From Acidobacteriaceae bacterium (GTDB taxonomy: Bacteria > Acidobacteriota > Terriglobia > Terriglobales > Acidobacteriaceae): a stretch of 62,461 nucleotides of DNA. Each line of letters opens with the position of its first letter. Within the stretch, counting starts at the first letter, position 1. The notes beneath the pieces are model-generated. The model had not been told where the DNA came from and searched no databases. It was given only the letters and a program-made list of their open reading frames with translations. Location: contig DAHXOQ010000002.1 of NCBI GenBank assembly GCA_027364815.1, forward strand, positions 1 through 62,461, in the 5' to 3' direction. The position numbers and the translations under genes are program-made. Shown here one piece after another: positions 27,623-32,602 of this stretch.

Positions 27623-28597
27623 TTAGTCGGAGGTCAGCAACTTTGGCGGCGTAGGCGACAAAGGCGGCTGTGTACTCACCAAGGTTTGTTCGATCTCGAA
27701 CTTGCTAAGCGTTAGCGTATAGGACTGTGTAGAGCTCGCTCCGAACTCAGTTCCTAGTTCTATTCCTGCCGCATATTGATAAGAGCTATTTCCATAAGCG
27801 GATACGCCCTCCTTAAGGAAGTCGAGAAAATTGAATTTAAATTCTCCCGACGGTAACCCCGGCTTCTTATGAGGATAAAAGAGAACGTTGGTCCCTCCTA
27901 TATACTCATCAAAGCTAAAGATCGTCGTATTGCCGTTCAGCGTAACCGGCTCATTGATGGTCTTGATGAAGGTTCCGCCACCAAAGTAGATAAAGCTGTA
28001 ATAAGGCAAGACCTCAACTTCAAGGCACTGCGAAGAATCCGATGGAGTACTTGAATTACACACCCATTCATCGAAAAGTAAATCTATGTCGCTTCCTGTG
28101 ATGGTGCCAGTCATTGCATATTTGATGTCGATAACCAAGGAAGACATGGCGGAAAGTTTCTTCGGGAATTGTGGCGGCTGATTCTGGAAACAGTCCATCC
28201 ACGGATCACATCCATAGAGTACAAATGGAAAGGCGTCCACTCCCGCTCTTGGCAATCCAGTCAGGTTAATGGTGGTAGTGATCGACCCGCGCCCACTATA
28301 AGTCTGCGTCATGTTGCCTTTACCTTTGCTTATTCCCCACGGATCGTTGTTCATCAGCCATAAATTTTTGGAGGAGTTCGTGGCCAGACGTACCGCAGTA
28401 CTAGATCCGCCTGTGCCCGGGGCAGTGTAGGAAGTCAAAGCAGCGGCGCCGGTGTTAAGCTCGGAATCCGACGTGATTAAAGTTTGAGCGCATGCCGCCG
28501 GCAACAATATTGTCGCACTGATCGAGGCCGCTAAAAGCACTTTTGACGTGATACAAAAGCACGTAATAGACAGATGATGCATTCGTTGCACCTCCAA
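27623..28597 (-). CDS. secreted GH12-like (divergent endoglucanase-fold) protein
   Basis: Signal peptide; NNDPWG, AFPFVLYGCDPWMDC, IDLLFDEWVC...CLEVEVLP, YAAGIELGTEFGASSTQSYTLTLSKFEI line up by eye with GH12 YPSVFNGCHYTNC, YDIWLDP...EIMIW and GFEPW...LAVNSF. Confidence 0.6.
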   Translation of the reverse strand: MEVQRMHHLSITCFCITSKVLLAASISATILLPAACAQTLITSDSELNTGAAALTSYTAPGTGGSSTAVRLATNSSKNLWLMNNDPWGISKGKGNMTQTYSGRGSITTTINLTGLPRAGVDAFPFVLYGCDPWMDCFQNQPPQFPKKLSAMSSLVIDIKYAMTGTITGSDIDLLFDEWVCNSSTPSDSSQCLEVEVLPYYSFIYFGGGTFIKTINEPVTLNGNTTIFSFDEYIGGTNVLFYPHKKPGLPSGEFKFNFLDFLKEGVSAYGNSSYQYAAGIELGTEFGASSTQSYTLTLSKFEIEQTLVSTQPPLSPTPPKLLTSD

Positions 28598-28664: not shown

Positions 28665-30179
28665 CTAACTGTTCTTCTTGATATTTTCGTCGTGCAACGC
28701 GGCTTCCTCCACACTTGATTTGCCTGTGTGCACAGGAAGGCCGCTAATGAGACCTTGGTAGTTTGTAAGGCGCGTATTGAGGATCACCATGCCTTTGGAT
28801 GTGATTTCATACTCGCGAATATCCTTGGCATGGTTTCCACCACGCATTTTGATGACAGTCATAATCTTGCGCAACTGACCATCGATAGAGACATATCTCA
28901 GCCGGATGATGTCATCTGTCAGGAAGGAAATTGAGTAAGTGCTGAAGGGAAATTCGATGAAAGATTCATCGACTTCAACCGTACTCAAGATAGTGACACC
29001 GATGCCGGTCAAGGCGAAGATCATGCGGTAAAGCGACTCGCGAAAATCGGCGCGGAAACCAGGTGAAAGAGCCATTTCAAAGCCAGCCAGGGAATCGATG
29101 ACCAAACGCTTGGCGCCAATTTTTTGTACGGCAGTGAGAATCGAATGCATGGTTTCGTCGACAGAAAGATCGAGAGGGCGGAGGTAGAGAATTTCGAGTT
29201 TGCCATCGGTTTGAGGCTTCTCGAGGTCCAAACCTAAAGTAGCCGCTCGTTCCGCATACGCTTGCGGACGCTCTTCAAAGACAGCGACAATGCCGGACTC
29301 ACCCTGACGGATGCCCTCGGCGATAAATTGGGTTGCGAGCACTGATTTTCCTGTTCCGGAAGAACCAGCCACAAGAACGCTATCCCCTTCTCGCACGCCA
29401 CCATCAAGCATCTTGTCCAACTCTTGAATGCCGAAGGATAGCCTCTTCTGTCCCAGTGCGTCTCTTCTGCCCGCCGTTAATCCGAAGGTGCGTGAGAAGG
29501 CCTGGACGCCAGCGTTGGTGATTCGGAAGGTATGTAATCCGGGTACAGATGCCTGACCGCGCAGTTTGACGATTTGCAACTTGCGCACAATGGAGTTACG
29601 TTCAGTTGTTTGACGCAGCCAGAGTAGCCCGTCAGCGACGGTAAAGATGGGGTTGTCTCGTAGTTCGTCCTCAGCATATTCACCGATCAGAAATGTAGTT
29701 GCCTGCCAGCTTGCCAGGAAGAGCGCCAAGCGCTGGATAAACGTTTGCAGTTCCATTCCATCGTGCGGCTTGCGAACCATGGTGCGGAAAGAGTCAACGA
29801 CCACAACAGCAGGGTTGAACTTTGTAACTTCATTGGTGATCTCATCCAGAACTGCGTCCAACTCATTCTCCAACACGATCTGGCTCAGATTGACGAAGCG
29901 AATGGCATCGGGCAACAATGCCGGATTAAAGAAGGTGTATTGTTGCTGATAGCGCAACATCTTGATAGCTGACTCGCCGAGGACAGTGAAATAGAGAGCA
30001 GGTCTCTCCGGGGTTGCATTGGCAAAGACAAACTGATGCGCCAGCGTAGTTTTGCCGCTGCCGGGAGCGCCGGCAATGATGTTGAACGAGAATTCAGGTA
30101 ATCCGCCGCCGACAATTTCATCGAGGCCCGGAACACCAGTCGGCAATTTGTTAATTTTTACCTTATCATCAGCGGTCAT
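28665..30179 (-). CDS. KaiC-like double RecA/RAD55-family ATPase
   Basis: Two P-loops (GAPGSGKTTLAHQF; AGSSGTGKSVLATQF), LPTGVPGLDEIVGGGLPE, FGIQELDKMLDGGVREG, FEERPQAYAERAATLGLDL, C-terminal DDIIRLRYVSIDGQLRKIMTVIKMRGGNHAKDIREYEIT. ORF opens at 30233. Confidence 0.93.
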   Translation of the reverse strand: MTADDKVKINKLPTGVPGLDEIVGGGLPEFSFNIIAGAPGSGKTTLAHQFVFANATPERPALYFTVLGESAIKMLRYQQQYTFFNPALLPDAIRFVNLSQIVLENELDAVLDEITNEVTKFNPAVVVVDSFRTMVRKPHDGMELQTFIQRLALFLASWQATTFLIGEYAEDELRDNPIFTVADGLLWLRQTTERNSIVRKLQIVKLRGQASVPGLHTFRITNAGVQAFSRTFGLTAGRRDALGQKRLSFGIQELDKMLDGGVREGDSVLVAGSSGTGKSVLATQFIAEGIRQGESGIVAVFEERPQAYAERAATLGLDLEKPQTDGKLEILYLRPLDLSVDETMHSILTAVQKIGAKRLVIDSLAGFEMALSPGFRADFRESLYRMIFALTGIGVTILSTVEVDESFIEFPFSTYSISFLTDDIIRLRYVSIDGQLRKIMTVIKMRGGNHAKDIREYEITSKGMVILNTRLTNYQGLISGLPVHTGKSSVEEAALHDENIKKNS

Positions 30180-30630
30180 ACTTTTCTCCCGTTCCCGAAT
30201 TGCGAACATCGAAGGTTGCATCCGGCCACGCATTGCGCAGCAGGCGTAATGTTAAGGCTTCGCCAAGGAAGATATGAAGCAAGTTGAGTAAGCGGGCGAT
30301 AAGCATGCTTCCCCGCTCGCTGGACTGATATTCCTTGGTTCGGCCTTTGTGAGTTTCAATTTGCAGATCATAGTCGTTAAAGCCCAGTAAGGACCCATCC
30401 TCCGCTATTTGTACAGCGGCAAGACTATAATCTTCCAACTTGGCCATCACCAAGGCGCGACAAGCAAGTGACTGAAAACTAGTAACTCCAGTTATTGCAG
30501 TAAGGCTGTGGCGCAATTTCTCATAAACACGCAGAGTTGCAGACTCCATTGACATGGAACTGTCGTCCAATGCGGCTTCACTAGCAAGGAGCCGTCGGGC
30601 CAAATCTCGTATCTCTGGTGAAATCGTCAT
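30169..30630 (-). CDS. uncharacterised KaiC-linked protein A (paralogue of 30784-31479)
   Basis: MTISPEIRDLARRLLASE...VYEKLRHSLTAITGVTSFQSLACRALVMAK...MLIARLLNLLHIFLGEALTLRLLRNA; overlaps the kaiC-like start by 11 nt. ORF opens at 30687. Confidence 0.75.
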   Translation of the reverse strand: MTISPEIRDLARRLLASEAALDDSSMSMESATLRVYEKLRHSLTAITGVTSFQSLACRALVMAKLEDYSLAAVQIAEDGSLLGFNDYDLQIETHKGRTKEYQSSERGSMLIARLLNLLHIFLGEALTLRLLRNAWPDATFDVRNSGTGEKYDR

Positions 30631-30783
30631 CGTTAAGACCGCATCATACGCTGTTGAAATTACCAACTTTCTCTCATTTGAGTACATTTCCGGAGATATT
30701 CATCTTCACATAAAATACAGTGCGATTGGATTTTCTGCCTGCAGATCACAATGCAGGTGAATAAAGACATTGGAGGATATGCA

Positions 30784-31479
30784 TCAATTCATATAACCAT
30801 TCGTCGGTGGCAGTGATATGTCTTGTTGCATGTCACCAGCTTTGCTTCTGATGAGTGTAAAAACATCCAGGACAGTAGCAATATTGCGAATATTGCCTAC
30901 AATAGATGTGAGCCCTTGCTCCATATCTGAATGAACGGCAATCAAAGCTTCGATATGATCACTCACACTTCTCAATCGATCGATTTCCCGCAGCAGTTTC
31001 TCGAATATCACGGCAGTTTCGGGTGCAACTGCTGTTGAAGTTGCTGCCATATCTGGGGTTGCAGCAAACTTTTTCTCGACATCAACCTGCATACGCAAAT
31101 CTTCAATCAAACGCAAAGTTGTTGCTTCGCCGAGGAAGGTAAGAAACAGCCCCAGCAGCTGCGCGATCATAATGACGCCGGCGTCGTCATCTGCATCATG
31201 ATTTGCGCCAATTTGAAATTCAACTCCGTCAAGACCGTACAACTCGCCGTTAGCCGTAACACGCACGGCTCCAAGTTTAGGCGACTGCGACTTGGCAAGA
31301 GCCAGGGCACGAGAGGCGAATACCTGAAATCCTTCGACACCAACAGGAGCGCCAAGTTGTCGACGCAGCTTCTCATAGACACGCACACTAGCAGGCTTGG
31401 TTTTAGGGGCAGTGCTTGCATCAACTTCACTTGCAATCAGGCTGCGAGCCAAATCACACATCTTGTGGGTAGGAGCCAT
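30784..31479 (-). CDS. uncharacterised KaiC-linked protein B with C-terminal coiled-coil-like extension
   Basis: DLARSLIASE...VYEKLRRQLGAPVGVEGFQVFASRALALAK...MIAQLLGLFLTFLGEATTLRLIEDL shared with protein A; helical C-terminus. Confidence 0.8.
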   Translation of the reverse strand: MAPTHKMCDLARSLIASEVDASTAPKTKPASVRVYEKLRRQLGAPVGVEGFQVFASRALALAKSQSPKLGAVRVTANGELYGLDGVEFQIGANHDADDDAGVIMIAQLLGLFLTFLGEATTLRLIEDLRMQVDVEKKFAATPDMAATSTAVAPETAVIFEKLLREIDRLRSVSDHIEALIAVHSDMEQGLTSIVGNIRNIATVLDVFTLIRSKAGDMQQDISLPPTNGYMN

Positions 31480-31888
31480 CGATTCAACTCTTTCTTCGGA
31501 GACAATACCTCATCATAAATGTGAGGCTCATCCTGCAATAATACAATTTTTACACTATTGTTATGGTGATGAGATGCTTAATGCGTTTCACATGCCTTGA
31601 TTGCATGGTAAATATTTAAATTACCGGGAAAATATTATAAAGTGTGAGCAATTTTGAACAATTAGCACTCTATTCAGTTGTAATACTTTGCTAGAGTTCA
31701 GGATGAAGTGTTGAGCCAAACGAATTTCAACGGATGCGTGGTGGACCTGGGACACCCGAATGACTGAGTAGAGCAAACAGTTGAGAATTCTTTGCGTATC
31801 ACGCGAGTGCCTTATCTTATATGGCAATGAAATAGAATTCCTGCCATTCACCGACCTGTTAGATCTGCATCTTGAAGGAGGCTGTCCG

Positions 31889-32602
31889 ATGGCTGACCGC
31901 GATAAAGACGGAATGGATATTCTTAAATTGCTTGCGAGCGCTGGTATAGTTCGTAGAATCATGCAATTTGAGCCGAAGGCAGCATTCTTTTCACAGGGAG
32001 ATCTTGCGGACTCGGTCTTCTATCTTCAAAAGGGTCGAGCTAAAATCACGGTCGTCTCGATTTCGGGAAAAGAAGCAACAATCAGATTGATTTCAGCGGG
32101 AGATTTTGTTGGTGAGGGAGCACTTGCGGCGGTTTCCGGGCTACGTTTATCAACTGCCAAAGCCGTCTCAGCCTGCACAGCGCTGAAAATTAAGCGCAGC
32201 GAGATGATCCGTCTGATGCACGATGAACGCGGATTCTCAGAGTTATTCATGAAGTACCTAATCGAAAACAGCATGCGCGTCCAAGCTGACCTGGTCGCCC
32301 AACTTTTCAACTCAAGCGAGAAGCGGTTGGCTCGAATCCTGCTGATGATGGCCGAATACGGAGAGCCGGGCGAGCCGATAGAGTTCATTCCAAGGATTTC
32401 TCAAGAGACGCTGGCAGAGATGATCGGGACTACCCGGTCGCGAGTGAGCTTCTTTATGAATCGCTTTCGCAAACTTGGGTTTATCGAATATAAAGACCGC
32501 ATCCGCGTTCACAAATCGCTGTTGAACGTGATTCTGCTTGATCAAACCAGCGAGCGTCATGCAAAAATACCTTCTCTTGCGGCAACGACGCGACGCATCT
32601 GA
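31889..32602 (+). CDS. Crp/Fnr-family transcriptional regulator
   Basis: cNMP-binding-like FSQGDLADSVFYLQKGRAKITVVSISGKEATIRLISAGDFVGEGAL; HTH RISQETLAEMIGTTRSRVSFFMNRFRKLGFIEY. ORF opens at 31781. Confidence 0.92.
   Translation: MADRDKDGMDILKLLASAGIVRRIMQFEPKAAFFSQGDLADSVFYLQKGRAKITVVSISGKEATIRLISAGDFVGEGALAAVSGLRLSTAKAVSACTALKIKRSEMIRLMHDERGFSELFMKYLIENSMRVQADLVAQLFNSSEKRLARILLMMAEYGEPGEPIEFIPRISQETLAEMIGTTRSRVSFFMNRFRKLGFIEYKDRIRVHKSLLNVILLDQTSERHAKIPSLAATTRRI

Follow-up and report, generated by a model that had tools for sequence, protein, structure and literature searches.

A KaiC clade with a dedicated, undescribed family of probable partner proteins in Acidobacteriota and other bacterial phyla

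In the cyanobacterial KaiABC clock, small dedicated partners are encoded alongside a double-domain KaiC ATPase (PF06745). In archaea, KaiC-like ATPases such as ArlH act as signalling hubs with varied partners; these are mostly single-domain proteins, and their partners differ from the two proteins described below. A further arrangement is the kaiBC-histidine kinase operon of the Rhodobacter sphaeroides type, which is discussed in PMC5520375. For most non-cyanobacterial bacterial KaiCs, the function is not known and the input and output partners are largely missing; at the two-site phosphorylation motif, the published KaiC variants possess ST, SS or SY (PMC5520375). Here, we describe a KaiC whose gene is preceded by two genes for paralogous proteins, termed P1 and P2. 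In the open-licence literature, we found no description of the P1/P2-KaiC pairing.

The window (the whole stretch of 62,461 nucleotides that was analysed) belongs to a soil-bacterium genome of 3.06 Mb, which is 80% complete and whose nearest named relatives are Acidobacteriota, for example Silvibacterium. The three genes are encoded on the minus strand. P1, the long paralogue of 231 aa (30784-31479), comprises an N-domain paralogous to P2 (aa 1-138; 31066-31479) and a tail (aa 154-219; 30823-31020). P2, the short paralogue of 153 aa (30169-30630), is the universal KaiC neighbour within the P1/P2 family. It should be mentioned that the start of P2 is uncertain: there is an in-frame ATG upstream at 30687, yet the relatives align from around 30630. 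KaiC (504 aa; 28665-30179) possesses two RecA-like domains, CI (around aa 10-235) and CII (around aa 240-486); it matches PF06745 over two stretches (E 9e-76) and KaiC entries in the PDB (to E 1e-62). As the initial annotation had stated, the stop of P2 and the start of KaiC at 30179 overlap by exactly 11 nt (ATGACCGCTGA, 30169-30179, minus strand). The KaiC ATG is preceded by GGGAG, and the overlap may reflect translational coupling. A Crp/Fnr regulator gene (31781-32602, plus strand), which encodes cNMP_binding and HTH_Crp_2 domains, is divergent from P1, and its translation may actually begin at an internal ATG near 31889. Just 3′ of KaiC, a GH12-like secreted protein is encoded (27623-28597, minus strand; PF01670, E 4e-7), and this neighbour is not conserved.

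When P1 was used as a query against the whole genome, the only matches were P1 itself and P2, the latter with E 2e-19 and 42% identity over 122 aa. About 50 columns are identical in the common N-terminal region. Thus, P1 and P2 are paralogues, as had been proposed. Neither protein was assigned to a family in Pfam, NCBIfam or PADLOC, and nothing above noise was found when 44 P2 relatives were scanned singly against Pfam and NCBIfam. A profile search of the PDB sequences found no relative. In the AlphaFold2 model, which was made with 44 sequences, P2 folds into a domain of helices and a single small beta hairpin (pLDDT 83, pTM 0.77), and Foldseek gave no fold match for it in the PDB (best E 1.6). 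The model of P1 consists of a P2-like domain followed by a two-helix hairpin (residues 154-182 and 184-219), and its fold also had no match in the PDB. The "coiled-coil-like tail" ascribed to P1 is indeed an extra tail; however, it is modelled as a helical hairpin that forms a separate domain. Weak HMM and Foldseek matches to DASH_Duo1, RGLG1 and VPS34 were below the curated cut-offs or had E values of at least 0.5, and we regard them as chance. We rejected the ideas that P1 and P2 are KaiA or KaiB in disguise, for which there was no family, sequence or fold match, and that they belong to a known domain family, for which only sub-threshold noise was obtained.

The distribution of the family was surveyed with a profile of the N-domain. 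A scan of 84,980 genomes gave 34 loci, to which one Paracoccus plasmid and one further Pseudomonadota-group genome were added. The N-domain loci span five phyla (Acidobacteriota, Planctomycetota, Verrucomicrobiota, Thermodesulfobacteriota and Pseudomonadota); a weak match in one genome (G120, L063) was noise. For co-occurrence, 250 genomes of the window's class were drawn evenly. Strong N-domain matches were present in 11 of them, and exactly those 11 genomes hold the KaiC clade (at least 68% identity), all other KaiCs in the sample being at most 34% identical (Fisher p 1.6e-17; the genomes are related and this value is a guide only). Furthermore, a short P2-type gene adjoins KaiC on the same strand in 46 of the 48 loci with enough sequence, or in 43 of 45 after the removal of three duplicates. 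The spacing of P2 and KaiC, measured by projecting each junction on the KaiC start of the window, was -17 to +59 nt in nearly all loci and -4 nt in 32 of the 46. The two exceptions are an apparently decayed copy (L062:4640-7199, genome G195), in which an N-domain remnant and a KaiC fragment lie ahead of an intact-looking PAS histidine kinase gene, and an orphan second copy in Zavarzinella formosa (L075:5186-5584), a P2-family gene without an adjacent KaiC that is close to two response-regulator genes.

This survey had been set beforehand as the test that could refute the initial annotation, and its outcome was the opposite of refutation: the homologues do co-occur with kaiC. The near-exclusive co-occurrence, the adjacency across phyla and the lack of any known-family match all give good support to the claim of a KaiC signalling module with its own adaptors. 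These proteins are probably dedicated partners; however, a pair of them is not the general state, given that a single P2 is found elsewhere and P1 is an addition seen in Acidobacteriota. Control of EPS or secreted proteins, which had been suggested as the role of the module, is unsupported because the flanking genes in question do not recur as neighbours across the relatives, and we rejected it. Anti-phage defence was also rejected, as KaiC gave generic ATPase matches only. Our search for the family in viruses found none.

Outside Acidobacteriota, the system is rare: it was found in 1 of 246 Planctomycetota-group genomes and in 2 of 349 Pseudomonadota-group genomes, with the query genomes included. 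On the Paracoccus liaowanqingii plasmid NZ_CP040765.1 (L074:4109-7227), a cassette of P2, KaiC, HWE histidine kinase and response regulator genes is located between IS elements. The scattered distribution, together with the copy on an IS-rich plasmid, suggests that the P2-KaiC system has moved by horizontal transfer.

In a phylogenetic tree, the KaiCs linked to P2 group together as a clade of their own (support 96/93). Walker A is intact in both CI and CII in all 29 clade members, and the catalytic Glu pair of CII is kept, except that L076, the most distant member, has EQ there. The site corresponding to S431-T432 is S-F in 28 of the 29 members and A-F in the most distant one; the comparator KaiCs possess SY at this pair, with one SF. 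The loss of the first Glu in CI (GE for EE) was rejected as a special mark because it is missing in the comparators too, which have S-E or A-E. KaiA (PF07688) was absent from all 21 genomes with a clade KaiC, while the control search found it in S. elongatus only. The window genome lacks KaiB (PF07689), as do 18 of these 21 genomes; the positive controls worked. Thus, the absence of kaiA and kaiB, initially noted for the neighbourhood of the locus, extends to the entire window genome at its 80% completeness. With Phe in place of T432, the clade KaiC is unable to go through the canonical two-site phosphorylation cycle. Taken with the absence of KaiA and KaiB, the S-F site means that the clade KaiC cannot be a canonical KaiABC oscillator. 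The window system therefore differs from cyanobacterial KaiABC in these respects and in its partners, which belong to another, unmatched family. Other KaiCs of Acidobacteria (L096-L104) come from the same phylum and most of them are followed by a kinase gene; however, these KaiCs are at most 34% identical, the kinase has a different N-terminus and there is no P2-family gene. One KaiC (L095:2252-3874, genome G105), which is 34% identical to the clade, possesses the S-F site and has no detectable P2 gene, may be an outgroup.

The genes downstream of KaiC differ according to the presence of P1. In loci without P1, a histidine kinase is encoded directly after KaiC in 11 of 11 cases. The count covers loci that extend far enough downstream and whose upstream ends are intact; ten kinases were recognized by similarity, and the eleventh is the HWE kinase of Paracoccus. 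In contrast, when P1 is present in the operon, the kinase is retained in only 2 of 19 loci (L026 and L037). A conservative Fisher test, in which Paracoccus and the truncated L046 were scored as kinase-less, gave p 6e-4; most P1 loci come from Acidobacteriota that are related to one another, so that the Fisher tests overstate independence and their values are guides only. For example, among cultured relatives, Zavarzinella formosa possesses P2-KaiC and the kinase, and Silvibacterium bohemicum possesses P1-P2-KaiC and the kinase. In the window, there is no histidine kinase gene directly 3′ of KaiC, and no cognate kinase was found elsewhere in the window genome (80% complete) or in G007, G027, G035 and G037. 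In Pfam scans, the kinases of the relatives are of PAS or HWE types, unlike SasA with its KaiB-like domain in cyanobacteria. The P1-less relatives resemble the Rhodobacter sphaeroides-type operons in that KaiC is followed by a kinase; they differ in that P2 is upstream and kaiB is absent from the operon, and the window type differs further in having no operon kinase. The P2-KaiC-kinase layout is probably ancestral and P1 a later addition. P1 has so far been seen in Acidobacteriota only. Its sequences fall into two clades, which can mean two origins or a single origin followed by gene conversion. Three genomes (L053, L055 and L056) combine a main-type P1 with P2-KaiC from another lineage, which suggests that P1 was acquired separately and joined an existing P2-KaiC system.

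The exchange of the kinase for P1 is accompanied by a linkage to Crp/Fnr, and both are statistical patterns. Of 30 P1 loci, 18 have a Crp/Fnr gene at a distance of at most 2 kb, compared with 1 of 13 P2-only loci (p 0.002), and the Crp of that sole P2-only locus is only 25% identical. The Crp family is multicopy, with 7 matches in the window genome, and several P1 operons (for example L013-L015, L034 and L037) have no nearby Crp. In other Acidobacteriota, homologues of the P1 tail occur as stand-alone proteins of around 60 aa without the N-domain (L017:7412-7594, L018:9457-9639, L090:4169-4351 and L091-L094), several of them beside Crp/Fnr genes. These helical-hairpin proteins are an undescribed small-protein family, and a Crp of this kind is encoded no more than about 1.5 kb from 4 of the 7. 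The initial annotation had regarded Crp/Fnr as a possible regulator of the module. The link is real; however, it follows P1 and the tail rather than KaiC, so that Crp/Fnr may serve both as a regulator and as an output.

We propose an explanation of the whole pattern, to which we give a little less than an even chance: a KaiC module free of KaiA and KaiB, in which P2 is the dedicated partner and P1 shifts the output to Crp/Fnr. The P2 family, an undescribed all-helical family, would be the dedicated partner of one KaiC clade. P2 would bind the KaiC ring during synthesis, as the overlapping genes suggest, and may control the ATPase activity, phosphorylation or assembly state of KaiC, the task of KaiA and KaiB in cyanobacteria. 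The state of KaiC and P2 would, in the ancestral layout, be read by a PAS histidine kinase whose gene lies immediately after KaiC. P1 may have arisen in the window-type Acidobacteriota by fusion of a P2-domain copy to the helical-hairpin tail, which also exists free beside Crp/Fnr genes. P1 would then enter the P2-KaiC complex via its P2-like domain, and its tail would redirect the output to the neighbouring Crp/Fnr, after which the kinase was presumably lost. The switch from kinase to P1 is not absolute, because several P1 operons have no Crp and two keep the kinase (L026 and L037). The Zavarzinella orphan P2-family gene, which is without KaiC, is evidence against this explanation.

The C-terminal helix of the P2 domain is strongly hydrophobic (maximum KD19 around 2.0), with KD19 above 1.6 in 39 of 44 P2s and in 32 of 33 P1s. 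This part is possibly an oligomer interface or a membrane contact, and the last helix could mean membrane association instead of ring binding. Together with the tight gene overlap and the fixed partner, this property is consistent with P2 and P1 acting not as signalling regulators but as chaperones or capping subunits that serve the assembly or stability of KaiC specifically and aid or anchor the hexamer, perhaps at the membrane via this helix. However, a pure chaperone would explain neither why P1 takes the place of the kinase nor why P1 and the tail are linked to Crp, and the confident model of P2 resembles a compact, soluble domain. We consider this explanation unlikely, although it deserves consideration.

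A slightly less probable view is that Crp/Fnr regulates only transcription of the P1-P2-KaiC operon and that the P1 tail is unrelated to it. The divergent and closely spaced promoters in the window (302 bp) and in many relatives fit this view. In L053, however, P1 is 8 kb from P2-KaiC, and the Crp (66% identical) sits beside P1. Moreover, Crp is also linked to stand-alone tails (L017 and L090) and is co-directional with P1 in L016, L019, L038 and L052. Crp/Fnr could regulate the operon and also have a downstream role. Last, the module might be a reduced but true timing device (an hourglass or a clock), in which P2 replaces KaiA and KaiB. In its favour, the clade KaiC has retained two intact ATP sites, the Glu pair of CII and one Ser at the S431 position; nevertheless, none of the genomes checked has KaiA and few have KaiB, and the Phe at T432 makes the canonical two-site cycle impossible. 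This idea is therefore very improbable.

Returning to P2 as a dedicated KaiC partner, a KaiC-based signalling variant with an undescribed partner family is a real finding, and a new regulator class is plausible. The fuller proposal, that P2 is the founder of a third class of KaiC regulators, unrelated to KaiA and KaiB and with a fold outside the PDB, and that fusion with the Crp/Fnr-linked hairpin into P1 rewired kinase output to direct transcription-factor control, is possible but rather doubtful. The pairing is more general than is visible from the window sequence alone. A partner family tied so closely to one KaiC clade provides a concrete experimental handle on non-cyanobacterial KaiC, and the apparent swap of the kinase for a Crp-linked P1 would amount to a natural experiment on how a signalling pathway is rewired.
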